Of a stretch of DNA of 64,000 bases, positions 3,799 through 38,974 are shown one piece after another; position 1 is the first letter of the stretch; each line of letters begins with the position of its first letter. The notes beneath the pieces are model-generated. The model searched no databases. It had not been told where the DNA came from and was given only the letters and a program-made list of their open reading frames with translations. The position numbers and the translations under genes are program-made. The DNA lies in NCBI RefSeq assembly GCF_900094805.1, contig NZ_FMAT01000004.1, positions 124,001 to 188,000 of the forward strand, written 5' to 3'. This DNA comes from Arthrobacter sp. NIO-1057. GTDB taxonomy: Bacteria; Actinomycetota; Actinomycetes; Actinomycetales; Micrococcaceae.

Positions 3799-3918
3799 GT
3801 GGGCTTACGACTCCTTGTCGATTGGGTTTTCGCTCTTCACCGCTAGGCGGTAGTGCGATCGAGGCAGGAATCCCGGAATCAATGTCACAACTTGTTGTGG
3901 TTAAACAAGGTATGCGGC

Positions 3919-4019
3919 TGCATCGTTTCTGGCGGTAGCACCGTAACCACCGGATGTGGCAGGTTGCTGCGGCGTCATCGAACCAGATCTCTCAGCCGCT
4001 CGGGATGGTGTAACAATCT
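3919..4019 (-). ncRNA. SAM riboswitch (SAM-I type) upstream of metY
   Basis: On the minus strand the conserved SAM-clan core is readable: CCATCC, GCGGCTGAGAGATCTGG, a GATGA kink-turn strand, CGCCGCAGCAACC, then GGTGCTACCGCCAG and the closing GATG. The GAG...CTC-type upper hairpin and the kink-turn suggest SAM-I rather than SAM-IV. Three other copies in this window share the core. Binding of SAM would lower metY expression. The stretch between this element and the phosphatase gene at 4123 must also hold that gene's promoter, but none is convincing. Confidence 0.88.
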
Positions 4020-20567: not shown

Positions 20568-22529
20568 CTAGTTACGTGCTCGGCAGATCGCATTGATCTC
20601 TGGAATGCACGGTTCATTTTGCAAGCTCGTGGTATCGCCGAGTGTGGTTCCCTCAAATAGTTGAGTGAGCAGTCGACGCATGATCTTGCCCGAACGTGTT
20701 TTAGGAACGTCCGGAACCAGAACCACATCGCGTGGCTTGGCGATGGGGCCAATTTGATTAGTCACGGTAGAACGCAATTCGGCAATGAACTGTGCCTGAC
20801 GGGCAGCCAGTTGCTCATCTGGGTTTTCAGCAATCAGTGACTTGTCCAAAGGCACCACAAACGCGGTAGCGGCGTGGCCAGTCTTGGCATCTGGGGTGGG
20901 GCATACGCCAGCCTCGACGACACCCGCATTAGTGACCAGGGCAGATTCAATTTCAATGGTGGACAGCCGGTGGCCAGAAATGTTGATCACGTCATCGGTG
21001 CGACCCAAAATGAAAATGTCGCCATCATCATCAAAGCGTGCTCCATCACCAGCAAGGAACCATCCCTGCCCGACGTACTGTTCCCAATAACTGGTGTAGT
21101 AGCGTTCTGGATTACCCCAAACGGTTCGTGCCATCGAAGGTCCCGTCTGGGTGATGACAATATTTCCCTGAGTGTTGGGTGCAACGCGCTGGCCTTGAGC
21201 ATCAACGATGTCCACTGACACTCCAGGCAGGGCGCGTGCGGCGCAACCAGGTTTGAAGTGCTCGTCGGTGGGCAACGGTGAAAGGATTGTGGCTCCCGAC
21301 TCGGACTGCCACCAGGTATCAACCATGGGAAGACCTTCGGTGGTATCGCGACCTAACTGCTCACGGAACCACTTCCAAGCCTCTGGATTCACTGCTTCGC
21401 CCACGGTGCCACCGATGTTGATAGAGGACAGATCGTAGGAATCTGGAATGCCCTGCGGGAACCAGCCCATCAAGGAACGCACTAGTGTTGGCGCGGTGTA
21501 GTAGCTGGTGACCTTGTAACGTTCGATGACTTCGAAGTGGCGGCCAGGGTGCGGGGCATTTGGCACGCCCTCGTAGATGACCTGAGTAACGCCGTTCGAC
21601 AGCGGGCCGTAGATCTCATAGGTGTGGGCGGTGACCCAGGCTAGGTCTGCGGTGCACCAGTGAACGTCTTGGTCTCGCTTTGAAACATCGGGGTTGGCGA
21701 ACAGCATATTGTAACTTGCCGCCGCCTGAGTCAGGTAACCGCCGGTGGTGTGGACCAATCCCTTAGGCTGCCCGGTCGTTCCCGAGGTGTACATGATGAA
21801 CAACGGCGTCTCTGAGTCGAAGAACTGTGCAACATGCTCGGTGGGCTGGGTGTCGACCACATCGTGCCACCAAACATCTCGGCCCTCGGTCCATGGGATC
21901 TCATCGCCCGTGCGCCGAATAACCAGGACCTTTTCAATTTCATTCTCACCCGAGACTGCCTGATCGGCATTGTCCTTGACCGGCACGGAAGTACCACGAC
22001 GGAACTGACCGTCCGTGGTTACTAAGACCTTGGCCTTGGTATCTTCCACACGGAACTTCAGCGCTTCAGCGGAGAAGCCTCCGAAGACCAGCGAGTGGAT
22101 CGCGCCAATGCGGGCACAGGCCAAGGTGATGACGACGGTTTCGATGAGTACCGGAAGGTAAATGACTACGCGGTCGCCCTTGACCACACCCAAAGATTCC
22201 AAGGCATTGGCAGCCTGGCTGACGCGTTCTTGCAAGTTCTTGTAGGTGACGGCTACACGGTCGCCTGGTTCGCCCTCGAAGTACAGTGCAACCTTGTCAC
22301 CGCGACCGGCAGCAACATGGCGGTCGGCACAGTTCACTGCGGCATTCAGTTTGCCACCGAGGTACCAAGAAATCTGCGGGCCACGCTTGGCTACCGGGTC
22401 AGCGGGGAGAATTTGGCTGGTGGTGTGCCATTCGGTGTCCCAATCTAGAAGGTGCGCCGCTTCATCCCAGAATGCTTGGCGTGCTTCCTCTGACACCAGT
22501 GTGGCGGTCGATGCTGATTCGATGGTCAT
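20568..22529 (-). CDS. acs: Acetyl-CoA synthetase
   Basis: This 653-residue AMP-forming ligase activates acetate to acetyl-CoA through acetyl-AMP. Motifs include FIMYTSGTTGQPKGLVHTTGG near residue 250, DTWWQSESG near 400, the adenylate-binding GRTDDVINISGHRLST and the acetylatable Lys in PKTRSGKIMRRLL near 620. Length is normal. An AAGGA lies 12-13 bases before the ATG. Upstream on the same strand are a 26-codon ORF and a SAM riboswitch, so acs could be read from a SAM-controlled transcript, which would be unexpected for this enzyme; a separate promoter cannot be excluded. Confidence 0.95.
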   Translation of the reverse strand: MTIESASTATLVSEEARQAFWDEAAHLLDWDTEWHTTSQILPADPVAKRGPQISWYLGGKLNAAVNCADRHVAAGRGDKVALYFEGEPGDRVAVTYKNLQERVSQAANALESLGVVKGDRVVIYLPVLIETVVITLACARIGAIHSLVFGGFSAEALKFRVEDTKAKVLVTTDGQFRRGTSVPVKDNADQAVSGENEIEKVLVIRRTGDEIPWTEGRDVWWHDVVDTQPTEHVAQFFDSETPLFIMYTSGTTGQPKGLVHTTGGYLTQAAASYNMLFANPDVSKRDQDVHWCTADLAWVTAHTYEIYGPLSNGVTQVIYEGVPNAPHPGRHFEVIERYKVTSYYTAPTLVRSLMGWFPQGIPDSYDLSSINIGGTVGEAVNPEAWKWFREQLGRDTTEGLPMVDTWWQSESGATILSPLPTDEHFKPGCAARALPGVSVDIVDAQGQRVAPNTQGNIVITQTGPSMARTVWGNPERYYTSYWEQYVGQGWFLAGDGARFDDDGDIFILGRTDDVINISGHRLSTIEIESALVTNAGVVEAGVCPTPDAKTGHAATAFVVPLDKSLIAENPDEQLAARQAQFIAELRSTVTNQIGPIAKPRDVVLVPDVPKTRSGKIMRRLLTQLFEGTTLGDTTSLQNEPCIPEINAICRARN

Positions 22530-22590
22530 GAAAGATAATTCCTTGGAGTGTTAAGGGGTGACAAGTTGAGAAGCTGGGGGAGAGGCGAAA

Positions 22591-22671
22591 TCAGGTTCCC
22601 CGCTCGATAGCCAGCGCAATGGAGGCGTTGGCCGGGTCTTGTCCCTGAGGCTGTGCATAGTTCAGTGCCAT
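22591..22671 (-). CDS. 26-codon ORF directly behind a SAM riboswitch
   Basis: The ORF reads MALNYAQPQG and ends IALAIERGT. Its GGAG ribosome site overlaps the 3' strand of the riboswitch P1 helix (GATGGAG), 6-7 bases before the ATG, so translation should depend directly on SAM. It ends 62 bases before acs. I do not recognise the peptide. It could be a regulatory leader peptide or the stub of a lost sulfur gene. Placement and ribosome site are the only evidence that it is translated. Confidence 0.45.
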   Translation of the reverse strand: MALNYAQPQGQDPANASIALAIERGT

Positions 22672-22679
22672 GATCATCT

Positions 22680-22776
22680 CCATCGGTACTGGCGGTAGCA
22701 CCGGCCTATGGAACATGTGATTCATAGGTGGTTGCTGCGACGTCTAGGAGCCAGATCTCTCGGTCGCTCGGGATGG
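22680..22776 (-). ncRNA. SAM riboswitch (SAM-I type) upstream of small ORF and acs
   Basis: On the minus strand: CCATCCCGAGCGACC, GAGAGATCTGGCTC, GACGTCGCAGCAACC, then CGGTGCTACCGCCAG and GATGG closing P1 with CCATC. The P3-P4 region has a longer stem (ACCTATGAATCACATGTTCCATAGG) than in the other copies. It lies back to back with the plus-strand copy at 23050, 274 bases away. Confidence 0.88.
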
Positions 22777-23049
22777 TTACCCGTCCATTACATGATTTCG
22801 AACGAATTGAATGCAAATCTTGCGTAACATGAAAAATGTTCGATAACTACGTCACAGGCACGAGATATTTCGTTATTTATTTCATTGAATGCCGGTTTGA
22901 TCGATGATTGATGACTTTGAGTAATTCATCTTCGGTGGAATGCGAAGTTGCCTGTGCAAACCGCCTGTCAAACCGGTGCATCGTCACGACGAAATGTGAC
23001 TTCGTGGCTTGGAAGCACCGCTTTGTTACGGCTACAAATGAATGAGAAC

Positions 23050-23135
23050 CCATCCAGAGCGGCCGAGAGATCTGGCTCGATAACGCCGCAGCAACCACCC
23101 GACTTGCGGGACGGTGCTACCGCCAGGACCGATGG
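23050..23135 (+). ncRNA. SAM riboswitch (SAM-I type) upstream of SfnB-like gene
   Basis: The core reads CCATCCAGAGCGGCCGAGAG, TCTGGCTCGATAACGCCGCA, GCAACC, then GGTGCTACCGCCAGGACC and GATGG pairing with CCATC. The start codon of the monooxygenase gene is only 20 bases further on, with GAGG between, so control is probably at translation initiation. Confidence 0.9.
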
Positions 23136-23154
23136 AAAGAATTGAGGATTTCTA

Positions 23155-24486
23155 ATGTCATTTGGCGAGTCGCCGAACACCGCTAGCTTGGACTTCAACC
23201 AGCTCAGTGATCCTTCGCAGGCTAGCGCCATGGGGCTAGACGACTTCCAAGAGCAGCTGCCTACCCGGCAATTACTCAAGGTTACTCCTGGTCCCAGCGC
23301 AGACGAACAATATGACCGATTGGCTGAAGTCTTTCGTCCGGTTTTCGCACAGATTGCAGGCACCGCCAAGGAACGCGACCGGAACCGCGTGCTGCCTTTT
23401 GAGCAGGTAGGCCTGCTCAATCGAGAACGCTTTGGTGCGTTGCGTATCCCAGTCGCCGAGGGTGGGTACGGCGCACGACTCGTTGACGTCTTCCGTCTAC
23501 TCATCGAACTTTCCGAAGCTGATTCGCACGTCGGCCAGTTGTGGCGCGCGCATATCGGGTTTGTTGAAAATGTGCTGGTTCTTGAAGATCAGGAACTACG
23601 TAGCAAGTGGATTTCTCGCATTGCCGCGGGACAAATTGTCGGCAATGCTTACACCGAGCGTGGCGGCAATGCGCTTGGTACCTTGAACACCAAGGCTAGT
23701 CAGGTTGACGGCCGTTGGCTGGTCACTGGTGAAAAGTACTACTGCACCGGCACTATCTTTGCCGACTGGACCACTGTGGCTGTGGCTCACCCGGAACTTG
23801 CCGGACGTCAGATTGCGGTGGTCTCCACCCAGCACAGTGGCGTAAAAATCTTGGATGACTGGGATGGTTTCGGCCAGGGTCTCACCGGTACAGGAACCAC
23901 CGAATTTCATCAGGTGCCGGTAGACACCTTCATGCCACAGCAGAACAACGACCCTGAGGCAGCGATTTTCCAGCTGGTGCTCATGGCCGTGCAAGCTGGC
24001 ATTGCCCGTGCAGCCCTGAATGACCTGCGTATTTCGGTGCAGAATCGTACGCGGATCTTCACCACCGGCACAGGAGTGCCGGTACATCGTGAGCCACAGG
24101 TACTGCAGTTAGTCGGTGAAGTCTCCGCAGAATCCTTTGCCGCTGACTCGGTGGTGATCGGTGCAGTCCTTGAAGTTGAAGCCGCCCTCATCGACCCAGG
24201 GCTAAATGATGAGGAACGCTACGCGGTCTGTGAACTAGCAGCTAACCGGGCACAAACTATTGTCCAGCCCCTGGTCATCGGTGCCACGAGCAAACTCTTT
24301 GACGGGCTTGGAGCATCGTCCACCAGCGTGATCTGTAACTTGGATCGACACTGGCGTAACGCCCGCACCATCGCCACCCACAACCCGGCCATTTATAAGG
24401 CACGCATCGTGGGTGACTACGAGATCAATGCAGTGCAACCGCAACGCCTCTCGGTCACCGGAGAAGACAGCAACCATCGGGCCTAA
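23155..24486 (+). CDS. SfnB/DszC-like flavin monooxygenase (acyl-CoA dehydrogenase fold)
   Basis: This 443-residue protein has the acyl-CoA dehydrogenase fold as used by FMNH2-dependent monooxygenases of the DszC/SfnB group: GNAYTERGGNALGT near residue 163, GEKYYCTGTIFADWT near 190 and the C-terminal LDRHWRNARTIATHNPA near 405, where DszC-type enzymes carry their active-site His. The acyl-CoA dehydrogenase catalytic Glu is not evident. It should insert oxygen into an organosulfur substrate using reduced flavin from a separate reductase, none of which is encoded nearby. A 45-residue N-terminal extension is absent from its paralog at 30400. It is SAM-riboswitch controlled and followed by an NtaA-like partner. 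Confidence 0.8.
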   Translation: MSFGESPNTASLDFNQLSDPSQASAMGLDDFQEQLPTRQLLKVTPGPSADEQYDRLAEVFRPVFAQIAGTAKERDRNRVLPFEQVGLLNRERFGALRIPVAEGGYGARLVDVFRLLIELSEADSHVGQLWRAHIGFVENVLVLEDQELRSKWISRIAAGQIVGNAYTERGGNALGTLNTKASQVDGRWLVTGEKYYCTGTIFADWTTVAVAHPELAGRQIAVVSTQHSGVKILDDWDGFGQGLTGTGTTEFHQVPVDTFMPQQNNDPEAAIFQLVLMAVQAGIARAALNDLRISVQNRTRIFTTGTGVPVHREPQVLQLVGEVSAESFAADSVVIGAVLEVEAALIDPGLNDEERYAVCELAANRAQTIVQPLVIGATSKLFDGLGASSTSVICNLDRHWRNARTIATHNPAIYKARIVGDYEINAVQPQRLSVTGEDSNHRA

Positions 24487-24546
24487 GGCGCATCCGCGCC
24501 TCCGCAATACACTTCACTACTACCCAACTATGGCAAGAGGAAACTA

Positions 24547-25947
24547 ATGAGCCAGCAGCGCGAAATTCTCTTCAACGCATTCGATATGAACTGTGTCGTG
24601 CACCAGTCGCCGGGCCTCTGGCGTCACCCAGAGGACAAGGCCTCGACCTACAACACCATTGGTTACTGGACTCACCTGGCCAAGGTACTAGAAAAGGGCA
24701 AGTTCGACGGCCTGTTCATTGCCGATGTCCTGGGTACCTACGATGTTTTTAACGGGACCAACGAATCCCCACTGCGCTCAGGTGCACAGGCTCCGGTTAA
24801 TGACCCGATGATGCTGGTCTCCGCCATGGCCGCCGTCACCGAGAACCTCGGCTTCGGCGTCACCGCCGGCACCGCCTACGAGCACCCTTACGCTTTCGCC
24901 CGCCGACTGGCCACCCTGGATCACCTGACCAACGGCCGCGTGGGCTGGAATGTCGTGACCGGCTACCTGCCATCGGCCGCCCGCAATATGGGCCAGGAAG
25001 ACCAGATGGAGCACGACGAGCGCTACAACCACGCCGATGAATACCTCGAAGTGGTCTACAAGCTGCTCGAGGGCTCGTGGGAAGACGACGCCGTGCAGAA
25101 CAACAAGGAAACCGGGATCTACACCGATCCGGCCAAGGTGCACAACATCGAGCACGAAGGCAAGTACTTCAAGGTGCCGGGCATTGCCATCACCGAGCCT
25201 TCCACCCAGCGCACCCCGGTGATCTACCAGGCCGGCGCCTCCTCACGCGGCATCAAGTTCGCATCGGAAAACGCCGAGGCGGTCTTCGTGACCAGCCCGA
25301 CCCGTGAAATCCTCAAGGCCACCGTCACCAAGATCCGCGATGCCGCCGAGGCCGCGGGCCGCGACCGCTACGACGTGAAGATCTTCGCGATGCAGACCAT
25401 CATCACCGATGAGACTTCCGAGAAGGCCCGGGCCAAGTACGAGGACTACAAGTCCTACGCCGACGTTGAAGGCGCCCAGGTGCTAATCTCCGGTTGGATG
25501 GGCGTGGACCTGTCTGAACTGGATCCGGATGAACCACTGGGTTCCAACGTGAAGTCCAACGCTATTCAGTCCTCGGTCGAGACCTTCCAGAAGGCCAGCG
25601 GCGATGACGGCAACCCATGGACCATCCGCCAGTTGGCCGAGTGGGTGGGCGTGGGCGGCTTCGGCCCGATCACCGTCGGCTCCGGCGCCGAGGTGGCCGA
25701 GAAGCTCATCGACTGGGTGGACTACACCGACGTGGACGGCTTCAACCTGGCCTACGCTGTCACCCCGGCGACCTTCGAAGACGTCGTCGAGTACGTTGTT
25801 CCCGAGCTGCAGGCCCGCGGCGCGTACAAGACCGAGTACGCTGAAGGCTCGCTGCGCAACAAGCTCTTCGGAGCCGGCGACCGCGTGAAGGACACCCACC
25901 GTGCCGCCAAGTACAAGATTGCTAACCGCGTAGCTGCCCAGGGCTAA
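24547..25947 (+). CDS. NtaA/SnaA/DszA-like FMN-dependent monooxygenase
   Basis: This 466-residue LLM-class flavoprotein begins EILFNAFDMNCVVHQSPGLW and has the NtaA-family features GLFIADVLGTYDVF, GRVGWNVVTGYLPSAARNMG near residue 140 and TPVIYQAGASSRGIKFA near 225, with the usual C-terminal YAEGSLRNKLFG. The family includes nitrilotriacetate, dibenzothiophene sulfone and N-acetyl-S-alkylcysteine monooxygenases, which cleave C-N or C-S bonds with FMNH2. It follows the SfnB-like gene after 60 bases with AGAGGAAAC before the ATG. From about 24,820 on, its codons end in G or C far more often than those of its neighbours or of its paralog at 31620. Confidence 0.85.
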   Translation: MSQQREILFNAFDMNCVVHQSPGLWRHPEDKASTYNTIGYWTHLAKVLEKGKFDGLFIADVLGTYDVFNGTNESPLRSGAQAPVNDPMMLVSAMAAVTENLGFGVTAGTAYEHPYAFARRLATLDHLTNGRVGWNVVTGYLPSAARNMGQEDQMEHDERYNHADEYLEVVYKLLEGSWEDDAVQNNKETGIYTDPAKVHNIEHEGKYFKVPGIAITEPSTQRTPVIYQAGASSRGIKFASENAEAVFVTSPTREILKATVTKIRDAAEAAGRDRYDVKIFAMQTIITDETSEKARAKYEDYKSYADVEGAQVLISGWMGVDLSELDPDEPLGSNVKSNAIQSSVETFQKASGDDGNPWTIRQLAEWVGVGGFGPITVGSGAEVAEKLIDWVDYTDVDGFNLAYAVTPATFEDVVEYVVPELQARGAYKTEYAEGSLRNKLFGAGDRVKDTHRAAKYKIANRVAAQG

Positions 25948-25991
25948 TGCCTTGAAAAGCTGAATGCGCTGCCCTTTGGTAGTGTGCAAAG

Positions 25992-26028
25992 GCCCCCAGT
26001 TCAGAAATTCTGAACTGGGGGCATTTTT
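25992..26028 (+). terminator. Rho-independent terminator
   Basis: GCCCCCAGTTCAGAA pairs with TTCTGAACTGGGGGC, followed by ATTTTTG. It ends the SfnB/NtaA transcript immediately before the metQ remnant. Confidence 0.9.
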
Positions 26029-26427
26029 GTGCTCTTGGTGGTACCGCAGCGCGAAGGCTTCCTGAAACTCAATCGAGATATCGAGGCTCGTACAGCAAGA
26101 ATTTCTGATGTTGTTGAGAACCCGCACGAATTCGTTTTGAAGGAAGCGGACTTGTTGGCGATGCCTCGAATGTTGGGTGACGCTGATGTCGCTGTTGGCT
26201 ACGTTTCGCAGTTCGATGCCTGAAAGGTTAGCCGAGATAAGGGAATCTTGTTGCCAGAGCCACCCAAAACCTTCGCTTCACGGCTGATCATGGCCTCTGA
26301 CTTTACAGAAACTGCCGACGCTCAGAAATTGATTGAAGTGTTCTCTGATCCTCGCCTGCAGGAATATTTGGAGACGACAGTTAACCCATTGGTCCAAGGC
26401 GTTCTCACCAAGGTTTCTGACAGCTAG
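26029..26427 (+). pseudogene. 3' remnant of a metQ-like lipoprotein gene
   Basis: From about 26044 the frame matches the C-terminal half of MetQ/NlpA-type binding proteins: ISDVVENPHEFVLKEADLLA, DADVAVGYVSQFDA, then an in-frame TGA at 26221-26223 where family members usually have Gly, then KVSRDKGILLPEPPKTFASR, QKLIEVFSDPRLQEYL and a stop at 26425-26427. The N-terminal half, with signal peptide, is absent. It has no start signal and lies just after a terminator. An intact metQ is at 29432. The remnant suggests this module once also carried its own binding protein. Confidence 0.8.
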
Positions 26428-26455
26428 ATTCATGCTCCCGCGTGGAGAAAAGCTA

Positions 26456-26495
26456 GAGGCAACCAGCAAGAAATTCTTTTCATGCTGGTTGCCTC
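26456..26495. terminator. Hairpin between metQ remnant and qorB-like gene
   Basis: GAGGCAACCAGCA pairs perfectly with TGCTGGTTGCCTC across a 14-base loop. It follows the metQ remnant and lies at the 3' end of the convergent oxidoreductase gene. T-runs beside it are modest. Confidence 0.6.
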
Positions 26496-26520
26496 ATAAG
26501 CTGTTAAGGTTTTTCGTGCC

Positions 26521-27384
26521 TTAGTGTGCGAGGGCATCCTTGATGGCCTTGCCAAGCGAGGTTGGCGCGCGGCCGATGAGCTTTTCCAAATCCCCGGAGT
26601 TCACTTCCAGTGCACCTTCACGAATACGCAGATCAGTATCTACCAAGATGTCAGCAAAAATGGCTGGAACACCCGAATCAGTGTAGATCTCCACTAGCTT
26701 TTCAGGATCCATTTCCTGATAAGCGACATCTTGACGTGCCGCAGCACCGACGGCCGCTGCTAGTTGGCTCAGGGTGAAAGGCTTGTCACCACCCAACTCG
26801 TAAATCTTTCCTGCTTCATTTGATTCCGAGAGCAACACTGCAGCAGCCGCTTCGGCATAGTCCGCACGGGTCGCCGCACTGATTTTGCCATCGCCTGCAG
26901 CGCCGAGAACAACACCGCTGTTCAAGTAACCCAGTAGCTGATCAGTGTAGTTTTCCGTGTACCAGCCGTTGCGTAGCAGGACGTAGTCGATTCCTGAACC
27001 TGCCAGCAGATGCTCGGTGGCGATATGTTCCTGCGCCAGTTTCATGTTGCCGGTCAGGGCATTGGCGATGGAGGTATAGGCGATGAGCTTTACGTTGACC
27101 CGTTGGGCAGCGGTGATGACATTTTCATGCTGCGTGGTCCGCTGACCTACTTCGCTGCCGGAAATCAACAGCAACTTATCGACGCCTTCCAACGCGCTCA
27201 CCAAGCTGGCTTCCGCGTTGTAGTCAGCCACGCGCGTCTGAAGACCCTTGCCGGCCAGCGGCTCTAACTTCTCTGGGGAACGACCAATGGCGATGAGCTG
27301 TTCTGGATCGGCGCCGCGCTTCAGCAATGCGTCGATAACTAACTGACCTAGCTGTCCGGTGGCTCCGGCAATTGCAATATTCAT
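26521..27384 (-). CDS. NAD(P)-binding NmrA/QorB-like oxidoreductase
   Basis: This 287-residue atypical short-chain dehydrogenase has the NAD(P)-binding start IAIAGATGQLGQLVIDALL, AIGRSPEKL after the second strand, LLLISGSEVGQR near residue 72 and IDYVLLRNGWYTENY near 130, as in NAD(P)H:quinone oxidoreductase QorB. It would reduce quinones or act as a redox sensor. In many bacteria such genes sit divergent from an HxlR regulator; none is seen here. The 27385-27675 stretch upstream holds no gene I can support. Confidence 0.82.
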   Translation of the reverse strand: MNIAIAGATGQLGQLVIDALLKRGADPEQLIAIGRSPEKLEPLAGKGLQTRVADYNAEASLVSALEGVDKLLLISGSEVGQRTTQHENVITAAQRVNVKLIAYTSIANALTGNMKLAQEHIATEHLLAGSGIDYVLLRNGWYTENYTDQLLGYLNSGVVLGAAGDGKISAATRADYAEAAAAVLLSESNEAGKIYELGGDKPFTLSQLAAAVGAAARQDVAYQEMDPEKLVEIYTDSGVPAIFADILVDTDLRIREGALEVNSGDLEKLIGRAPTSLGKAIKDALAH

Positions 27385-27675
27385 CTTTGTCCTCTCGTTA
27401 AAGCTTCAAACCATTACAACCGACGCAGTCACTGCAGAATTCCCGAACTATATTTCGTCGCGGTATTAAACTCATAGCCCAGTGGCATTTCAAGCCTTCG
27501 CGTCTTAAAGCGTAAGAGCTGAGAAATGTGTCGGATCTTTACGTGGAATACTGCCCCAATCTCATGCTTGGCCCGCTGATTTATGTCTTGATGACGCTGA
27601 TTAACGTAACTTTTGTCGGGCCGTGGCCTTGGAAGACAAACTTGAATTGTTCGGGCAGTACAACCGAACACCACA

Positions 27676-27759
27676 CCATCCAGAGCGACTGAGAGATCTG
27701 GCTCAACGACGTCGCAGCAACCACCCGACAGGGAGCGGTGCTACAGCCAGGACCGATGG
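27676..27759 (+). ncRNA. SAM riboswitch (SAM-I type) upstream of metNIQ
   Basis: The core reads CCATCCAGAGCGACTGAGAG, TCTGGCTCAACGACGTCGCA, GCAACC, CGGTGCTACAGCCAGGACC and GATGG. It lies 89 bases before metN. The kink-turn strand is AACGA rather than GATNA, a small deviation from the other copies. It should control metN, metI, metQ and the following monooxygenase pair. Confidence 0.9.
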
Positions 27760-27848
27760 AGTACCTTCACTTCGCCTACAAAAATCTGTCAAAACGGATA
27801 TTTCTTAGCGAAGTGCGCTCCGCATAACCAAGCACCAAAGGAGCGATA

Positions 27849-28652
27849 ATGATTCGTCTTGAGAACCTAACGACAACCTTCGGCAAAGGCCAAGACCAGT
27901 TCACTGCTGTCAAAGATGTCTCTCTAGATATTAAGACTGGAAGCATTCACGGCATTATCGGCTTTTCTGGGGCCGGCAAATCTACGTTGCTTCGCAACAT
28001 CAACTTGTTGCAGCGCCCCACCTCGGGGCAGGTCTTTGTTGATGGCGTTGAACTTACCGGTCTGAGCGAAAGCGAGCTACGCAAGCAACGCCATGATATC
28101 GGAATGATTTTCCAGCATTTTAACCTGTTGAATAATCGCACTGCACAACAAAATGTGGAGCTGAATCTGAAATTCGCTGGTGTGCCTAAGAAAGAACGCC
28201 GCGAACGTGCTCTCGAAGCACTGTCCATCGTGGATCTCGCCGATAAGGCTAGCGCGTATCCGGGCCAGCTCTCTGGTGGCCAGAAACAACGCATTTCCAT
28301 TGCTCGTGCGCTCGTCACCGAACCAAAGGTTCTGTTGTGCGACGAGCCAACCAGCGCGGTGGATCCACGGACCACTACTTCGGTACTCCAGTACCTGAGC
28401 GATATCAACACCAGCCTTGGAATTACCACTGTCATCGTCACTCACGAGATGAACGTCATTAAGGCTATTGCCGACAACGTCTCGGTAATGGAAGACGGAG
28501 CCGTAGTTGAAGAGTTCGCATTGAGCTCATTGCAGGATCCAAGCTTCGAACCAATTACGCCTATTGGTCGCTATCTCATCAGCGATGAAATCACGCTCAA
28601 TCGAGCACCCAAGCAGACCCCAAACCTCGGCGCCGACGTAGCGCGCGTATAG
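27849..28652 (+). CDS. metN: Methionine-type ABC transporter ATP-binding protein
   Basis: This 267-residue ATPase has Walker [10 protein letters not shown], the signature [15 protein letters not shown] and Walker [14 protein letters not shown], with MetN-like features such as [11 protein letters not shown]. It powers uptake of methionine or a related organosulfur compound. It stops soon after the ATPase core; typical MetN proteins (about 340 residues) carry a C-terminal NIL/ACT domain that binds methionine and shuts the pump off. That domain is missing, so transinhibition is probably absent. Ribosome site AAAGGAGCG precedes the ATG. Confidence 0.9.
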
Positions 28653-28669
28653 AGAAACCTGGATTACCA

Positions 28670-29386
28670 ATGAACTTCACGTCAGTAGTGCTAGCCACGA
28701 GCAACGGCAGCGCAGCAACTTTCAATTTTGACCGTATTCTCGAACTAGCCCCAGAAATCTGGGTGGCTATGGCGCAGACGTTCGCGATGTTGCTGGTGGC
28801 TATCCCAATAGCTATTCTCTTGGGAACTCCACTGGGCATCTGGCTTTATTCCATGTCTCCCAACGGTTTGCGTCCACGACCACGTGTGCACCGAATTGTG
28901 GATGGGCTGGTCAATACGATCCGTTCCTTCCCTTTCCTCATCCTGCTCATTGCCATCATTCCGTTCACCCGATTCGTAGTGGGAACAACTATTGGTACGG
29001 CGGCGGTAATCGTGCCACTGACCATCAACGCGATCCCATATTTCGCTCGTTTTGTTGAACAGAACATTAGCCAGTTGGGCAACGGTGTGGTTGAGGCAGC
29101 TCAGGCTATGGGCGCGAGCCGAGGTCAGATTATTCGGGAAGTGCTCTTGGTTGAGGCTAAACCCGCGTTGCTGTCTTCCATCACCATCATGACCGTCAGC
29201 TTTATCTCGTACTCGGCTATGGCCGGTTTGGTCGGTGGCGGCGGTATCGGCGACTTCGCCATCCGCTACGGCTACTACCGCTACGAAACCGGAGTCATGC
29301 TGCTGGCTATTGTTCTGATGATCTTGCTGGTCCATGCCGTTCAATTCATTGGAACCCGGCTATCGCGCGCCGCTGACAAGCGCTAA
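28670..29386 (+). CDS. metI: Methionine-type ABC transporter permease
   Basis: This 238-residue membrane protein has about five hydrophobic segments, the MetI-type motif VNTIRSFPFLILLIAIIPFT near residue 82 and the EAAQAMGASRGQIIREVLL coupling loop near 145, followed by GLVGGGGIGDFAIRYGYYRY. It forms the transport channel with MetN and MetQ. It starts 17 bases after metN and precedes metQ by 45 bases. Confidence 0.92.
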   Translation: MNFTSVVLATSNGSAATFNFDRILELAPEIWVAMAQTFAMLLVAIPIAILLGTPLGIWLYSMSPNGLRPRPRVHRIVDGLVNTIRSFPFLILLIAIIPFTRFVVGTTIGTAAVIVPLTINAIPYFARFVEQNISQLGNGVVEAAQAMGASRGQIIREVLLVEAKPALLSSITIMTVSFISYSAMAGLVGGGGIGDFAIRYGYYRYETGVMLLAIVLMILLVHAVQFIGTRLSRAADKR

Positions 29387-29431
29387 ACACTAAATCTCAT
29401 TCAACTCGCAATTCACCAAAGGACAAATACC

Positions 29432-30304
29432 ATGGCTTTATCTCGTCGTACCTTCTTGAGCTTCACTGCCGGCTCCGCTGCAATCCTGGCGCTGACATCT
29501 TGCGGCCTTGCTGGTGGCCAAGCCGCTGGCTCAGGCGACAAGACCATCAAGGTTATTGTTACCGAGTCCGCCCCGTCGCAGGAACCAACCAAAATCGCGC
29601 AGAAGCTACTAGCAGAAAAGGGCTGGACTCTTGAAGCCACCTACGTCACCGACATCGTGCAGCCAAACCACGTAGTATCCAACGGCGAATACGATGCCAA
29701 CTTCTTCCAGCACGGCGCCTACCTTGAACAGTTCAAGAAGGATCAGAACGTGGATGTGGAGCCTGCCTTCTACATGTACAGCTCACCAGCAGGCGTCTAC
29801 TCGAAGAAATACGATGACATCAAAGACTTGCCCGATGGTGCCACCATCGCCCTGCCAGTAGACACTGCAAACAACGGCCGCGCTTTGGCTTTGCTGGACA
29901 AAGCTGGGGTGTTGAAAGTGACCGAGGGCAAGAGCGTGATCCACTTGTCGCAGAATGACATTCTGGAGAACCCGAAGAACTTCAAATTTGTTGAAGTAGA
30001 TCAGCAGTCATTGTCCAAGACTCTCCCCGACGTAGACGCAGGATTCCTCTTCGCCCGCCTTGGAGCCGAAATTGGGCTCAACCCCAGTGACGCGTTGCTG
30101 TTCGAAGAGGAAGAAGACGCTCTTCCTTACATCAACATCATCGGTGCAAAGCCCGGATTCACCGACACCGAAAAGGGTAAAGCCCTCGAAGAGGCGTACC
30201 ACTCTGATGAGGTGCGTGAATGGTATGCAAACTACCTTGATGGTGCTTTGGGCACCCCGTGGGATCGCGACCTAGAAGCGGATTTCGCGACCTGGAACAA
30301 GTAA
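29432..30304 (+). CDS. metQ: Methionine-type ABC transporter lipoprotein
   Basis: This 290-residue NlpA-family binding protein starts MALSRRTFLSFTAGSAAILA and has a lipobox LTSC at residues 22-25, so it is anchored on the outside of the membrane. The SRRTFL stretch resembles a Tat signal. Family features include SQEPTKIAQKLLAEKGW, YDANFFQHGAYLEQF, VALPVDTANNGRAL-like residues near 150 and the C-terminal YHSDEVREWY. It captures methionine or an organosulfur ligand for MetNI. Given the two monooxygenases that follow, the ligand may be an organosulfur compound rather than methionine. Confidence 0.92.
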   Translation: MALSRRTFLSFTAGSAAILALTSCGLAGGQAAGSGDKTIKVIVTESAPSQEPTKIAQKLLAEKGWTLEATYVTDIVQPNHVVSNGEYDANFFQHGAYLEQFKKDQNVDVEPAFYMYSSPAGVYSKKYDDIKDLPDGATIALPVDTANNGRALALLDKAGVLKVTEGKSVIHLSQNDILENPKNFKFVEVDQQSLSKTLPDVDAGFLFARLGAEIGLNPSDALLFEEEEDALPYINIIGAKPGFTDTEKGKALEEAYHSDEVREWYANYLDGALGTPWDRDLEADFATWNK

Positions 30305-30399
30305 ACGGTCTGGCTCCACGGCACACCTCTGTAGTGCCGTGGGGGTAGCCGCTTTCCTTGTCCTTTTACTTGAATAGTGACGCCCTGTAGGGAGAACCA

Positions 30400-31617
30400 A
30401 TGACGACTATTGCTACGGCAGCAACCGAAAGCCGATATCAGGAACTTCTAGATCGCTTCGGTTCGGTCTTCGCCAAGATTGCTGAAGGCGCCTGCGAACG
30501 CGAACAAAACCGAATTCTGCCCTTCGAACAGGTGCAGTGGCTTAAAGAGGCCGGATTCACGACCCTGCGAGTGCCAGAAAGCCACGGTGGAACCCCGATC
30601 AGCCATGAGCACCTATTCCGTTTGCTCATTGAGCTTGCTGCGGCAGATTCAAACGTTGCCCACCTGTTGCGCAGTCACTTCTCCTTTGTTGAAACGATCT
30701 CCCTGCAGCCTCAAGAATTCCAGGACCGCTGGTTCCCGAAAGTACTGCAAGGACAGATCTTCGGTAACGCCGCGACCGAACGTGGTGGCAATGCCTTGGG
30801 CACCACGAATACCAAGCTGGTGAAGACAGATGACGGCTGGGTTTTGCGTGGGGAAAAGTACTACACCACAGGTTCGATTTTTGCTGACTGGGTCGTGGTG
30901 ATGGCAACGACCGAGGGAGTGGAAGGGCGCCAGTACGCGATCGTAGACCGCAATGCCCACGGGGTACAGATTCTTGATGACTGGGACGGTTTTGGTCAGC
31001 CACTAACCGGTACTGGAACCGCCATTTTCACTGATGTTCCGGTGGAGCCAGGCAACATTATTCAGCGCAAGGTCGCTTCTACCCTTGAACCTGCCTTCTT
31101 CCAGCTGTGTCTGCTTTCGGTGCTGGTGGGTATCGGCAAGGCAGCACGAAATGAAGCGGCAAGTATTGTCTCGAACAGAACTCGTACGTTCAACACCGGT
31201 TCAGGTTCTCTGTTTAAGGATGACCCGCAGATTCAAGAATTAGTAGGACGTCTAGCTGCGAACGTATTCGCCGCCGAATCCATTGTTATTACCGCCGCCC
31301 GCGAGCTTGATGCGGCCCATGACCTGCAACTAGGACTGGACTCGGACGCTGCCTATTTGCGGGCAGAGTTGGCCGTCCAGCAGGCCCACGTGGCCACACC
31401 CAAACTGATCTTGGATGCCACCAGTGAACTATTTGACGTCACCGGAGCATCAGCGGTGTCAACCTCTAAATCACTGGACCGGTTCTGGCGCAACGCACGT
31501 ACGGTGGCCACCCACAACCCGGTGGCTTTCAAAGCGCGTTCCGTGGGGGACTACTTCATCAACGGCACCATCCCGACAGGACTGAATTCCATCGGTGAAG
31601 CGAAGGTAGGCAAATAG
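30400..31617 (+). CDS. SfnB/DszC-like flavin monooxygenase (acyl-CoA dehydrogenase fold)
   Basis: This 405-residue protein is a paralog of the one at 23155 without its N-terminal extension. It shares FGNAATERGGNALGTTNTK near residue 125, GEKYYTTGSIFADWV near 155, ILDDWDGFGQPLTGTGTA near 193 and the C-terminal SLDRFWRNARTVATHNPVAF near 363. It should be an FMNH2-dependent oxygenase acting on a sulfur compound brought in by MetNIQ. It lies 95 bases after metQ and 2 bases before the NtaA-like gene, in the riboswitch-controlled operon. Confidence 0.8.
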   Translation: MTTIATAATESRYQELLDRFGSVFAKIAEGACEREQNRILPFEQVQWLKEAGFTTLRVPESHGGTPISHEHLFRLLIELAAADSNVAHLLRSHFSFVETISLQPQEFQDRWFPKVLQGQIFGNAATERGGNALGTTNTKLVKTDDGWVLRGEKYYTTGSIFADWVVVMATTEGVEGRQYAIVDRNAHGVQILDDWDGFGQPLTGTGTAIFTDVPVEPGNIIQRKVASTLEPAFFQLCLLSVLVGIGKAARNEAASIVSNRTRTFNTGSGSLFKDDPQIQELVGRLAANVFAAESIVITAARELDAAHDLQLGLDSDAAYLRAELAVQQAHVATPKLILDATSELFDVTGASAVSTSKSLDRFWRNARTVATHNPVAFKARSVGDYFINGTIPTGLNSIGEAKVGK

Positions 31618-31619
31618 TC

Positions 31620-33038
31620 ATGGCAACTTTCCAAGAACGTCCACGCTTGCTGCTCTCAGCATTCTTGATGAATACCTCAAGTCATATCCTTGGCGGAATG
31701 TGGCGTCATCCCGAAGCTCAACAGCACCGTTTTAGTGAACTGGGCTTGTGGGTGGATCTGGCGAAAAAACTAGAGGACGCAAAATTTGATGCGTTGTTCT
31801 TTGCCGATGTTGTTGGCCTATATGGAGACCATGAAGGTGGTTGGGCCTCGCATGTGCGCAAGGGATTACAGGTTCCTAGCCATGACCCGCTGGTCCTGCT
31901 TTCCGCACTGGCGGCTGGAACCAAGGACATTGGATTGGCCATGACCAGTTCGGTCATTCAGAGCCACCCATTCCAGTTCGCACGACAGATTTCTACCCTA
32001 GATCATCTGTCGCAGGGTCGTGTGGCATGGAATATCGTCACCAGCGTGCTGGAAAACGCTCACCGTAATTTTGGTGGCAAAGACTTAGTTGCCCATGATG
32101 ATCGTTATGGTTGGGCTGAAGAGTACGTTGAGGCCGCTTACAAACTCTGGGAAGGGTCGTGGGAAGACGACGCCCTGCTCGCAGATAAGCAGGCGGGTCT
32201 CTACGCTGATCCGAGCAAGGTCAATAAGATCAACCATCGTGGCGACTTCTACTCCATTGATGGGCCACACCTAGCTCTGCCTAGCGCTCAACGTACTCCG
32301 TTCCTCTTCCAAGCCGGTTCCTCAGCTCGTGGTTCGCAATTTGCGGCAACCCATGCCGAGGCGACTTTCCTCTTTGCTCCGCATGCACAGTATGTTGCCA
32401 AGAAGAATGCGCAGCTGATCGAGAACCTAGCTGCCGCGGGACGCAACCGTGAAGACATTAAGGTCTTTGCTGGTTTGTCCTTTGTCGTGGGATCCACCGA
32501 GGCTGAAGCTAAGGCCTTGGAAGCAGAATACGACGAGTATCTGGACCTGGATGCGATTATTGCGCACATCGGTGGCGGGTTGGGTGTTGATCTTGGTGGG
32601 CTGGATCTAGATACCCCATTGGGGCAGATTCACACCGAGGGTGCCCAAGGTGTACTTGAAGCTGTTAAGGCTTCGGTTCCTGGCGGCAACCCGACGCTGA
32701 AGGATCTGGCCCACTATCGTGCGAAGGCTCAACAAATCGTGGGTACCCCGGAAAGCATAGTAGATGAATTAGAACAGTGGCAGGATGCGGGAATTGATGG
32801 CTTGAACATCATGAATCACGTGTTGCCAGGATCTTATGACAACTTCATCGAGGGTGTACTTCCAGAACTGCGTCGCCGTGGGCTGGCGCAAAGCGAGTAC
32901 GAGCAGGGAAGCCTGCGTCAGAAGGTCTTTGGGCGAGGAGATTACCTGCCAGAGAATCATCCGGCGTCCCAATACCGGGGTGCTTTTTCTCAGCTGAGCG
33001 CAGCGAATACTGAGGCCGCGGCTCAACTGCAAAGCTAG
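31620..33038 (+). CDS. NtaA/SnaA/DszA-like FMN-dependent monooxygenase
   Basis: This 472-residue LLM flavoprotein is a paralog of the one at 24547: LLSAFLMNTSSHILGGMWRH at the start, ALFFADVVGLYGDH, GRVAWNIVTSVLENAHRNFG near residue 140, TPFLFQAGSSARGSQFA near 225 and the C-terminal YEQGSLRQKVFG. It should complete C-S or C-N cleavage with reduced flavin. It is the last gene of the metNIQ operon, with its ATG 2 bases after the previous stop, and is followed by a strong terminator. No flavin reductase is encoded in the operon. Confidence 0.85.
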   Translation: MATFQERPRLLLSAFLMNTSSHILGGMWRHPEAQQHRFSELGLWVDLAKKLEDAKFDALFFADVVGLYGDHEGGWASHVRKGLQVPSHDPLVLLSALAAGTKDIGLAMTSSVIQSHPFQFARQISTLDHLSQGRVAWNIVTSVLENAHRNFGGKDLVAHDDRYGWAEEYVEAAYKLWEGSWEDDALLADKQAGLYADPSKVNKINHRGDFYSIDGPHLALPSAQRTPFLFQAGSSARGSQFAATHAEATFLFAPHAQYVAKKNAQLIENLAAAGRNREDIKVFAGLSFVVGSTEAEAKALEAEYDEYLDLDAIIAHIGGGLGVDLGGLDLDTPLGQIHTEGAQGVLEAVKASVPGGNPTLKDLAHYRAKAQQIVGTPESIVDELEQWQDAGIDGLNIMNHVLPGSYDNFIEGVLPELRRRGLAQSEYEQGSLRQKVFGRGDYLPENHPASQYRGAFSQLSAANTEAAAQLQS

Positions 33039-33053
33039 TGAACCGATTTTGAT

Positions 33054-33088
33054 AAGGGCGGTGGAGGTCAATCACCTCCACCGCCCTT
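33054..33088 (+). terminator. Terminator of the metNIQ-monooxygenase operon
   Basis: AAGGGCGGTGGAGGT pairs perfectly with ACCTCCACCGCCCTT around a 5-base loop. No long T-run follows on the plus strand, but the stem is strong and well placed. Confidence 0.75.
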
Positions 33089-33143
33089 AGTAGCTCCTGC
33101 GCGAGCAATCCATCGGGGTCTAAATCCGGGTAAGGTGTCGAGC

Positions 33144-33560
33144 ATGGAGAACAATCACGTCAATGATCCGCAGGTGATTCGTCGTCTTTTGGGCACCCCG
33201 GGGCGTTGGGCCGTAGTGGGCCTGACCAATAATCCAACGCGTGTGGCACCGAGTATTGCCCGATTCCTCCGTGACGAACTCTCCATGCAGATTATTCCGG
33301 TGTCACTGGATGCTCAGAGTGTCATGGGAGAGCAAGGGTATGCGCAACTGGCCGATATTCCTGGTCCTATCGATGTGGTTGACTGTTTTGTGAATTCTTC
33401 AAAAGTCGGCGACATCGTTGATCAAGCCATTAGCGTTGGCGCCAAGGCAGTGTGGATGCAACTGGGCGTCATCGATCAAGATGCAGCGCAACGTGCCAAA
33501 GACGCTGGGTTGGATGTAGTGATGAATACCTGCCCGAAGATTGAATACCCATTTCGGTAA
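33144..33560 (+). CDS. CoA-binding domain protein (YccU family), second copy
   Basis: This 138-residue protein has the CoA-binding fold: RRLLGTPGRWAVVGLTNNPT near the start, IDVVDCFVNSSKVGDIVDQA near 80, AVWMQLGVIDQDAAQRAKDA and the end motif VMNTCPKIEYP with the conserved Cys. It is a shorter paralog of the protein at 1930-2424. I chose the ATG at 33144; a GTG at 33135 is in frame just upstream. Two small genes follow closely, so the three probably share a transcript. Confidence 0.8.
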   Translation: MENNHVNDPQVIRRLLGTPGRWAVVGLTNNPTRVAPSIARFLRDELSMQIIPVSLDAQSVMGEQGYAQLADIPGPIDVVDCFVNSSKVGDIVDQAISVGAKAVWMQLGVIDQDAAQRAKDAGLDVVMNTCPKIEYPFR

Positions 33561-33571
33561 CCGAGGTGAGC

Positions 33572-33991
33572 ATGACTAACCGCAACGGCCAAGAGTCACT
33601 TGAGAATCAATGGGCACAACTGTGCTTGAGCATGCCCTGTTCTTTTGCGGATTATCCATTCGGACCAGAGAACACAGTGTTTAAGGTTCATGGTAAGGAC
33701 AAGAGCAAGTCGAAGATGTTTGGGCTGCTGATGAATGTTCGAGGTGATCTGGTTCTTAATCTGAAGTGTGAGCCAGCATTGGCAGATCAGCAGCGTAGCG
33801 AACATCCGGAAATCACGCCGGGTTATCACATGAACAAAAAGCACTGGAACTCGATCCGTGCGGGACTCGACCTAGATTTTCTGCGAGAGTTGGTTGAAGA
33901 CTCTTATGATCTTGTCGTCGAGGGAATGCCTCAACGGGATAAAGAATACATTCGCTTGCAAGACACTATCGGTCAAGAAGCCCTAGACTAG
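33572..33991 (+). CDS. MmcQ/YjbR family protein
   Basis: This 139-residue protein has the MmcQ/YjbR (double-wing, CyaY-like fold) features: LSMPCSFADYPFGPENTVFK near residue 20, FGLLMNVRGDLVLNLKCEP near 50, PGYHMNKKHWNSI near 85 and a C-terminal DSYDLVVEGMP. These proteins may bind DNA; the function is not established. The ATG at 33572 has GAGG before it, while an in-frame GTG lies two codons upstream. Confidence 0.82.
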   Translation: MTNRNGQESLENQWAQLCLSMPCSFADYPFGPENTVFKVHGKDKSKSKMFGLLMNVRGDLVLNLKCEPALADQQRSEHPEITPGYHMNKKHWNSIRAGLDLDFLRELVEDSYDLVVEGMPQRDKEYIRLQDTIGQEALD

Positions 33992-33995
33992 AAGC

Positions 33996-34319
33996 ATGTA
34001 CTTCATCGTTGTTAAATATCAGGTAAAGCCAGAAAACACCGAAAATTTCATGGACCAAGTAGCAGAGTTCACCCAGGCCACCCGCGCCGAAGAAGGGAAC
34101 CTCTGGTTCGATTGGTCAGTGAGCGTGGAGGACCCCAACGAATTCGTACTCGTTGAAGCCTTCCGCGATGATGAGGCAGCTGCAGCCCACGTAAACTCCG
34201 CACACTTCGCAGCAGGCATTGAATCCATGCGCCCGTTGTTGGTTTCCACTCCGAAGATCGTCTCACGCAAGGTGGACGGCGAAGACTGGGACACCATGGG
34301 CGAACTGGTGATCGACTAG
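33996..34319 (+). CDS. Antibiotic biosynthesis monooxygenase (ABM)-domain protein
   Basis: This 107-residue protein is a single dimeric ferredoxin-like ABM domain: KYQVKPENTENFMDQVAEFT, ATRAEEGNLWFDWSVSVEDP near residue 35 and FVLVEAFRDDEAAAAHVNSA near 57. Relatives are cofactor-free quinol monooxygenases (YgiN type) or haem-degrading enzymes; the conserved His near residue 66 fits YgiN. It starts 4 bases after the MmcQ-like gene and is followed by a strong terminator. Confidence 0.82.
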   Translation: MYFIVVKYQVKPENTENFMDQVAEFTQATRAEEGNLWFDWSVSVEDPNEFVLVEAFRDDEAAAAHVNSAHFAAGIESMRPLLVSTPKIVSRKVDGEDWDTMGELVID

Positions 34320-34329
34320 TTTCCAACGC

Positions 34330-34379
34330 AAATAAAGGAAGGAACCGCGAGAAAATTCTCGCGGTTCCTTCCTTTATTT
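34330..34379. terminator. Bidirectional terminator
   Basis: A perfect stem of more than 20 bases (AAATAAAGGAAGGAACCGCG onward) separates the ABM gene from the convergent 5'-nucleotidase gene, with A-rich and T-rich ends serving both directions. Confidence 0.92.
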
Positions 34380-34391
34380 CATGCCTTCAGG

Positions 34392-38777: not shown

Positions 38778-38805
38778 GCCTGAAGTGTGCTACTAATGGG
38801 AACAG

Positions 38806-38882
38806 TGACACGGGGTGCCGCACGGCGGCTGAGAGAACACCCGTTGAACCTGATCCAGTTAGTACTGGCGAAGGGAATGTCA
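38806..38882 (+). ncRNA. TPP riboswitch (THI element)
   Basis: All conserved parts are readable: TGACACGGGGTGCC, GGCTGAGAGAACACCCGTTG, AACCTGATCCAGTTAGTACT, GGCGAAGGGAATGTCA, with TGACA closing P1 against TGTCA. The downstream leader can form an 11-base-pair stem with one bulge (38925-38935 with 38948-38959) that ends 1 base before the AAGGAG at 38961, so thiamine pyrophosphate probably blocks translation of the SDR gene. Confidence 0.95.
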
Positions 38883-38974
38883 TAGATCCTGCGTACGCGT
38901 GCACCTCTAGAGGGTGAAGCGTTCGCGTCTTTGGCTACTTCTCGTTCGCCAACAGACGCCAAGGAGTTCACGCG

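Follow-up and report, generated by a model that had tools for sequence, protein, structure and literature searches.

SAM-I riboswitch-led pairs of SfnB-like and NtaA/DmoA-family monooxygenases and a MetNIQ-type importer as a probable organosulfur scavenging system of Arthrobacter sp. NIO-1057

In a 64 kb stretch of the genome of Arthrobacter sp. NIO-1057 (contig NZ_FMAT01000004.1, positions 124,001 to 188,000; hereafter the window, i.e., the whole stretch of DNA that was analysed, in whose coordinates positions are given), we identified two gene modules, each led by an S-adenosylmethionine (SAM)-I riboswitch (S-box) and each carrying an SfnB-like gene and a gene for a luciferase-like monooxygenase (LLM), the second opening with a MetNIQ-type importer. 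The whole genome comprises 3.54 Mb on 13 contigs, and the nearest named relatives by identity of the second SfnB-like protein (SfnB2), among the matches listed, were Arthrobacter sp. S41 (90%) and Glutamicibacter ardleyensis (83%). We consider it fairly probable that the modules serve SAM-I-controlled organosulfur scavenging by import of a compound other than methionine, S-oxygenation, C–S cleavage, and delivery of the sulfur to MetY. In such a scheme, the aptamer would permit translation when SAM is low, and the importer of module 2 would take up an organosulfur compound distinct from ordinary methionine, most likely a thioether, sulfoxide, or sulfone that is anionic and lacks a free alpha-amino group. 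The sulfur of the imported compound would be oxygenated by the SfnB-like enzyme with reduced flavin mononucleotide (FMNH2) from an unlinked reductase, the DmoA/HcbA1-type LLM enzyme would then cleave the C–S bond, and the freed sulfur (sulfite, sulfinate, or thiol) would pass to MetY, predicted to be under the same riboswitch class, and via homocysteine to methionine. Within this scheme, the translational control, the kind of substrate, the sequence in which the two oxygenases act, and where the sulfur ends up are inferred. The original prediction of an organosulfur scavenging system with an importer that may not be meant for methionine gained support from changes in the MetQ pocket, transporter swapping beside a conserved oxygenase pair, low cysteine and methionine contents, and S-box linkage. 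Published work is cited for those parts of each paper drawn on here.

The predicted two-module layout was borne out, all genes lying on the forward strand. Module 1 consists of a SAM-I riboswitch, an SfnB-like gene (SfnB1), and an LLM gene (LLM1), while module 2 runs from a SAM-I riboswitch through MetN, MetI, MetQ, SfnB2, and LLM2 to genes for a CoA_binding_2 and a YjbR protein, as follows.

23047–23138, forward strand: SAM-I riboswitch (S-box) before module 1 (RF00162, 57.7 bits)
23155–24486, forward strand: SfnB1, putative group-D flavin monooxygenase with acyl-CoA-dehydrogenase fold (TIGR04022, 253.5 bits, below cut-off; tree)
24547–25947, forward strand: LLM1, NtaA/DmoA-family flavin mononucleotide (FMN) monooxygenase (TIGR03860, 543.8 bits; nearest solved relative DmoA, PDB 6ak1)
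25992–26022, forward strand: terminator-like hairpin with T tail after LLM1 (14-pair stem)
26047–26418, forward strand: MetQ' remnant, a second metQ-like gene with one in-frame stop, TGA (PF03180, 34.3 bits)
27673–27762, forward strand: SAM-I riboswitch before module 2 (RF00162, 60.9 bits)
27849–28652, forward strand: MetN-like ATPase of 267 aa (TIGR02314, 293.2 bits; the match stops at model position 229 of 343)
28670–29386, forward strand: MetI-like permease (NF008049, 188.7 bits, cut-off 212)
29432–30304, forward strand: MetQ-like binding lipoprotein with altered pocket (PF03180; pocket alignment)
30400–31617, forward strand: SfnB2, putative group-D flavin monooxygenase (TIGR04022, 307.7 bits, below cut-off; tree)
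31620–33038, forward strand: LLM2, NtaA/DmoA-family FMN monooxygenase (TIGR03860, 494.2 bits; PDB 6lr1, 494 bits; clade with HcbA1)
33135–33560, forward strand: CoA_binding_2 protein (PF13380; relatives 3' of LLM2 in other loci)
33566–33991, forward strand: YjbR-family protein (PF04237)

The module 2 transporter fell below all NCBIfam cut-offs for methionine transport, with 293.2 bits against 499.7 for MetN, 188.7 against 212 for MetI, and 141.3 against 374 as well as 140 against 228.85 for MetQ. For MetQ of Neisseria meningitidis, seven methionine contacts have been described (Y81, F98, H100, Y103, R156, N213, and N238), and exchange N238A cuts binding of L-methionine more than 100,000-fold (PMC6739813). 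These positions were transferred via E. coli MetQ in MAFFT alignments, the transfer being unsure for the most distant rows. Module 2 MetQ keeps five of the seven contacts (F98, H100, Y103, R156, and N238) and carries Y81I and N213F, both of which were found in all nine genus members having this MetQ, the window's included. The 23 MetQ homologues of named SfnB loci, which form a few clades and are therefore not independent, have lost N213 in 21 cases (only L106 and L085_3496 keep it), N238 in 20, and R156 in eight. In an order-level sample of 59 genomes, N213 and N238 were both kept in 38 of 46 MetQ proteins encoded more than 10 kb from SfnB/LLM genes, while N213 was kept in one of four encoded within 10 kb (one-sided Fisher p = 0.029). 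This sample used 50 of 53 rows, leaving out the own remnant and two sub-cut-off hits; distances were assigned by visual inspection, and MetQ copies from short contigs (e.g., G048 C145 and G030 C182) went into the far group. Since R156 is kept and an amino-group contact is lost, the sequence suggests that the module 2 ligand is anionic and lacks a free amino group, and the importer probably carries something other than methionine. No report of this pocket change was found among the open-licence papers listed. Loss of N213, usually together with N238, thus offers a sequence rule for MetQ homologues that probably do not carry methionine in the customary manner. Genes of such homologues are commonly named methionine transporters.

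Comparison with related loci showed that the oxygenase pair is conserved as a stable core, with the transporter as the changeable part, a pattern to be expected of an importer that supplies the oxygenases with their substrate. Upstream of the SfnB2–LLM2 pair, G. ardleyensis (L063), Paeniglutamicibacter antarcticus (L035), and Arthrobacter sp. Bz4 (L056) have an S-box together with an Opp-type importer (SBP_bac_5, two permeases, and a fused ATPase, families confirmed in L063), and four further loci (L036, L037, L060, and L062) have the same layout as judged by the ATPase hit. L039 and L041 showed MetN, MetI, LLM2, MetQ, and SfnB2 in one gene run. Orthologues of module 2 MetQ (75–100% identity) were present in nine of 18 genus genomes versus 17 of 18 for SfnB2. 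G. ardleyensis, G. nicotianae, Arthrobacter sp. MYb213, and congener G066 have, close to the modules, a second MetNIQ-like set (MetN'I'Q'). Of its MetQ', only the 3' end is left in the window (72% identity to residues 193–316 of the intact L063 protein), directly 3' of the terminator-like site of module 1; an intact copy is present in G066. Pantoea, Erwinia, and Pseudocitrobacter harbor LLM1-type and SfnB-like genes next to a MetQ whose three pocket letters are the same. In another phylum, Pseudomonas wadenswilerensis (L110, 7586–17527, forward strand) harbors an Opp-type transporter, 27–43% identical to that of L063, interleaved with two SfnB-like genes and one LLM gene.

Both data sets bear on the possibility that two separate SAM-repressed functions lie side by side, with MetNIQ taking up methionine or an analogue and the oxygenases using diffusible dimethyl sulfide (DMS), dimethyl sulfoxide (DMSO), or dimethyl sulfone, so that co-regulation would be their only tie. 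Module 2 MetQ does keep R156, N238, and the thioether pocket (F98, H100, and Y103), no intact transporter gene adjoins module 1 in the window, and compounds as small, neutral, and volatile as DMS should enter cells unaided. Nevertheless, N213 or N238 was lost in 21 of the 23 homologues from SfnB loci, L039 and L041 have LLM2 inserted among the MetNIQ genes, and Opp-type importers occupy the same slot beside the same oxygenase pair. Moreover, contig 3 of the genome carries a second MetNIQ; six of the seven contacts are kept in its MetQ (H100 being Thr), and the candidates scored (150 of 391 first-look candidates in the genome) included no SAM-I site on this contig. We therefore regard separate functions as possible, if unlikely.

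To follow the riboswitch linkage beyond the window, we surveyed 79 named SfnB-like loci from the best 80 places, 37 of them actinobacterial and 42 mostly proteobacterial, with an S-box RNA model built from six S-boxes of the own genome. This revealed 74 matches of at least 48 bits in 40 actinobacterial sources (the window, two stretches of the own genome, and the 37 loci), the next match scoring 14.6 bits, and the best score in the 42 other loci, Acinetobacter and Pseudomonas included, was 14.8 bits; thus, the linkage goes beyond chance. Judged by distance and strand, 27 of the 37 actinobacterial loci, versus none of the 42 others, have a same-strand S-box no more than 6.5 kb upstream. A nearby LLM gene (more than 300 bits, within 6 kb upstream or 4.5 kb downstream) was present on the same strand in 29 of 37 versus 12 of 42 loci, and on either strand in 29 of 37 versus 18 of 42. 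Ten more stretches were examined, eight of congeners and two of a different genus in the same family; nine contained S-boxes, and L207 had none. Within the genus, all 18 genomes carry an SfnB1-type gene, and 17 of 18 each carry an SfnB2 orthologue (84–97% identical in 16 of the 17 other genomes) and a third SfnB-like gene, by score of the type found on contig 6. SAM riboswitches in sulfur limitation, pairs of SfnB-like and LLM genes, and MetNIQ homologues are each already known singly. No report of SAM-I control of such oxygenases was found among the open-licence papers listed, and our survey ties SAM-I riboswitches to organosulfur oxygenases across Micrococcales.

Both module riboswitches exceeded the RF00162 gathering score of 44.4 bits over the full aptamer (model positions 1–108). 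Altogether, at least six SAM-I sites were located among the candidates scored, five of them above the gathering score. Apart from those of the two modules, they stand before a MetY-like gene, a gene pair on contig 4, which we take to be sulfur genes of the pyridoxal phosphate (PLP) type, an acetyl-CoA-synthetase-like gene, and a pair of SfnB-like genes on contig 6 (42.8 bits, just under the gathering score). Two of these further sites lie in the window.

3917–4011, reverse strand: SAM-I riboswitch (RF00162, 51.4 bits) before genes 2428–3798 and 1930–2424 (both reverse strand), presumably MetY-like and CoA-binding-type, respectively
22677–22779, reverse strand: SAM-I riboswitch (RF00162, 50.5 bits) before the acetyl-CoA-synthetase-like gene 20568–22529 (reverse strand)

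As S-boxes precede the MetY-like and PLP-type genes as well as the oxygenases, the likely acceptor of sulfide and the oxygenases are probably both under the control of the SAM level. In module 1, the aptamer ends 16 nt before the ATG of SfnB1 and no terminator-like site was listed in between, so that the riboswitch at 23047 probably acts at the level of translation. RNA folding of both leaders gave weak z-scores (−0.63 and −1.47), a promoter scan found sites no more numerous than in shuffled sequences, and a terminator scan of 22500–34400 yielded 14 sites versus 11.6 expected in shuffles.

Some neighbors of these sites are of interest in their own right. The acetyl-CoA-synthetase-like gene, relatives of which lie near SfnB/LLM modules in several other loci, was considered as a methylmercaptopropionate-CoA ligase, but its product passed the acetate-CoA ligase cut-off (TIGR02188, 750.4 bits, cut-off 724.95), so that recycling of acetate released by MetY, which it may perform, is the simpler reading. 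CoA-binding-type proteins are encoded 3' of both the MetY-like gene (1930–2424, reverse strand, family assigned by name only) and LLM2 (33135–33560, forward strand, family confirmed by profile), which suggests a shared accessory role in sulfur transfer. On contig 6 (L015, 10093–12651, reverse strand), two tandem SfnB-like genes lie behind the S-box, and no LLM or MetNIQ-like gene was recognised adjoining them. On contig 4 (L016, 10187–12830, forward strand), a gene run near the S-box-led sulfur genes includes a PF01613 flavin reductase gene. Its genes presumably resemble MesX (DUF1852) and a short MetE-like methionine synthase, the names MesX and MesD being our assumption.

Proteins for sulfur acquisition have been described as poor in cysteine and methionine in Rhodococcus and Gordonia (PMC8557817, PMC7661421). 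Combined contents of both residues were 0.69% for MetQ, 0.74% for SfnB2, 0.85% for LLM2, 1.36% for SfnB1, and 1.94% for LLM1, and these five proteins were lower than 38 other, hand-listed window genes with a median of 2.33% (p = 0.0027; MetN, MetI, CoA_binding_2, and MetY were in neither group). MetQ, SfnB2, and LLM2 are thus low in these residues, like sulfur-starvation proteins. The SfnB-like pair of contig 6 showed 0.46% and 0%, the second protein having no cysteine and no methionine beyond the start.

The acyl-CoA-dehydrogenase-fold enzymes had been named after SfnB and DszC. With the scores listed above, SfnB1 and SfnB2 stayed below the SfnB equivalog cut-off (TIGR04022, 430.9 bits), in which a true SfnB of Acinetobacter baumannii (L091, 8667) scored 587.3 bits, and they reached only 115.8 and 132.5 bits, respectively, against the DszC equivalog cut-off of 850 (NF043015). 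In a maximum-likelihood tree, both were placed inside a 71-row SfnB-like clade (SH-aLRT, the approximate likelihood-ratio test, 100) separate from DszC, TdsC, MsuC, and true SfnB. This tree and that of the LLM enzymes were quick searches with support given by SH-aLRT only; the former was built without 22 of 116 rows, 18 loci having been picked by name as redundant, mostly Pseudomonas. Based on cut-offs and the separate clade, membership in SfnB or DszC was rejected, so that the DszC naming falls, whereas the SfnB naming holds in the sense of SfnB-like. In A. baumannii L091, the true SfnB adjoins a member of the SfnB-like clade. Equating the SfnB-like proteins with Dms2 of A. baylyi, where dms1 and dms2 are adjacent (PMC13352529), was rejected as evidence, since the A. 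baumannii genome carries two tandem SfnB-like pairs. By analogy, SfnB1 and SfnB2 probably oxygenate sulfur; in strain ADP1, the group-D enzymes Dms1–3 oxidise DMS and DMSO (PMC13352529).

Both LLM enzymes clearly passed the NtaA/DmoA subfamily cut-off (TIGR03860, 279.7 bits). The nearest solved relative of LLM1 was DmoA (PDB 6ak1, 555 bits, 55% identity), its clade being sister to the DmoA clade (SH-aLRT 90), and that of LLM2 was HcbA1 (PDB 6lr1, 53% identity), followed by LadA (46%). LLM2 grouped with HcbA1 at SH-aLRT 100, a join flagged by the program for long branches that meet, as were HcbA1, LLM3, and RcaE in this tree. From the 20 DmoA binding residues listed in PMC9259527, LLM1 keeps 17 and LLM2 keeps 13. 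BdsA scored 266 and 227 bits with LLM1 and LLM2, respectively, and fell outside both clades, and CmoJ, which was placed by score and not in the tree, reached 235 and 225 bits, far below the best relatives. DszA or CmoJ membership was therefore rejected, and the DszA naming of the LLM enzymes had to be dropped. Since neither enzyme kind falls with DszA, DszC, or true SfnB, the Dsz names describe fold and logic and not membership. Organosulfur scavenging as such was supported, and the predicted oxygenate-then-cleave logic is its putative route: by analogy, LLM1 and LLM2 probably cleave C–S bonds. A comparable pairing is found in Gordonia alkanivorans 135, where an acyl-CoA dehydrogenase, induced 393-fold by quantitative PCR on dibenzothiophene, and an NtaA/DmoA-family monooxygenase, present in a proteome table, have consecutive accession numbers (PMC11852219).

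The identities of LLM2 to HcbA1 and LadA would also fit LLM enzymes that oxidise carbon or halogenated substrates instead of being sulfur enzymes. SAM-I control, the SfnB-like partners, the MetNIQ linkage, and the low cysteine and methionine contents all point to sulfur, and we hold such a role to be highly improbable.

For LLM1, the close relation to DmoA, with its sister clade and 17 shared binding residues, raises a methanethiol shortcut, in which LLM1 would be a DMS-type monooxygenase and MetY would join methanethiol and O-acetylhomoserine to methionine. MetY-type enzymes use methanethiol, S-boxes precede genes that we take to be MetY-like, and the shortcut would explain control by SAM and not by a cysteine or sulfide signal. 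However, it leaves the SfnB-like partner unexplained, because oxidation of DMS to DMSO would remove the DmoA substrate. Further, soluble recombinant DmoA proteins released no methanethiol, for which the authors blame the absence of a suitable reductase; two listed DmoA homologues are about 51% identical to DmoA (PMC9259527). In the sections of PMC13352529 drawn on, no group-C enzyme of ADP1 oxidised DMS. Altogether, the shortcut appears distinctly unlikely.

The ADP1 result also counts against organosulfur scavenging as proposed here, as do several of our own observations. Ten of the 37 actinobacterial SfnB loci have no S-box within reach. The order-level MetQ test comprised only four near cases, one of which (G045) keeps N213 and N238, as do L106 and L085_3496 from the named loci, and N213 was also lost in eight of the 46 far proteins. 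Module 2 MetQ retains N238, which is critical for methionine affinity, so that it may still bind methionine; this speaks against narrowing the ligand beyond an anion without a free amino group. Finally, MetI (3.38%) and CoA_binding_2 (5.00%) are not poor in cysteine and methionine, LLM1 is only slightly so, and four unrelated window genes are equally poor (0.39 to 0.78%).

Within organosulfur scavenging, a narrower proposal is that the Micrococcaceae importer was repurposed for a de-aminated or N-blocked relative of methionine, e.g., a methylthio-carboxylate as a ligand it may bind, from which the SfnB-like and DmoA/HcbA1-like enzymes would strip the sulfur or free methanethiol for MetY. We rate this version as rather unlikely, but if true, a dedicated route by which deaminated thioethers are salvaged to methionine would be under the command of a SAM-sensing riboswitch. 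The modules as a whole point to a few substrates that could be tested with regard to sulfur cycling in soil.

As predicted, no flavin reductase was found near the modules: in a search limited to PF01613, none was present in the window, and four genes of this family lie elsewhere in the genome. As an argument this is weak, since a single reductase, MsuE, supplies every monooxygenase of the DMS pathway in A. baylyi (PMC13352529). No DszB was recognised among the module genes, and no genome-wide search for a DszB-type desulfinase was made. In Nesterenkonia (L053, 9068–9895, forward strand), a nitroreductase-family gene, possibly a linked flavin reductase, lies between MetQ and the SfnB-like gene.

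Elsewhere in the window (38801–41100, forward strand), a thiamine pyrophosphate (TPP) riboswitch (75.5 bits) leads gene 38975–39775, presumably encoding a short-chain dehydrogenase/reductase-like protein, and an NtaA-family monooxygenase gene (39772–41100). The latter enzyme was nearest to CmoJ and not poor in cysteine and methionine (3.17%). An upstream TPP riboswitch on the same strand was found in all 12 scanned loci of its relatives, the window included (16 matches found), and this set possibly serves thiamine salvage or breakdown.

In comparison with known systems, LLM1 resembles DmoA in overall identity and binding residues and differs in its sister clade and in its SfnB-like partner gene. 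The 4S pathway follows the same logic with DszC as S-oxygenase and DszA as C–S-cleaving LLM enzyme, but the module enzymes stand apart from their Dsz counterparts in trees and scores, and no DszB was seen beside them. Corynebacterium glutamicum uses sulfonate esters with ssuI-seuABC-ssuD2, an actinobacterial monooxygenase set for organic sulfur. For this set, the transcription factors McbR, CysR, and SsuR and not a riboswitch are named in the sections cited (PMC2580772). Salvage of S-alkylcysteine by CmoO/CmoJ in Bacillus likewise employs an NtaA-superfamily LLM enzyme after sulfoxidation (PMC10863075), but CmoJ is distant from LLM1 and LLM2, and no acetyltransferase or deacetylase was recognised in the module. 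The DMS/dimethyl sulfone system of A. baylyi and Pseudomonas (Dms1–3, SfnG, MsuC, SsuD, and MsuE) also combines group-D and group-C two-component flavin monooxygenases for sulfur and shares one reductase among them (PMC13352529). It relies on SfnG and SsuD where the modules have DmoA/HcbA1-type enzymes, and neither a riboswitch nor metNIQ appears in the main text of that paper. In Pelagibacter, SAM-V and SAM-II riboswitches likewise govern the response to sulfur limitation, metY included, but there they control methionine synthesis, and sulfur acquisition is constitutive (PMC5069961).

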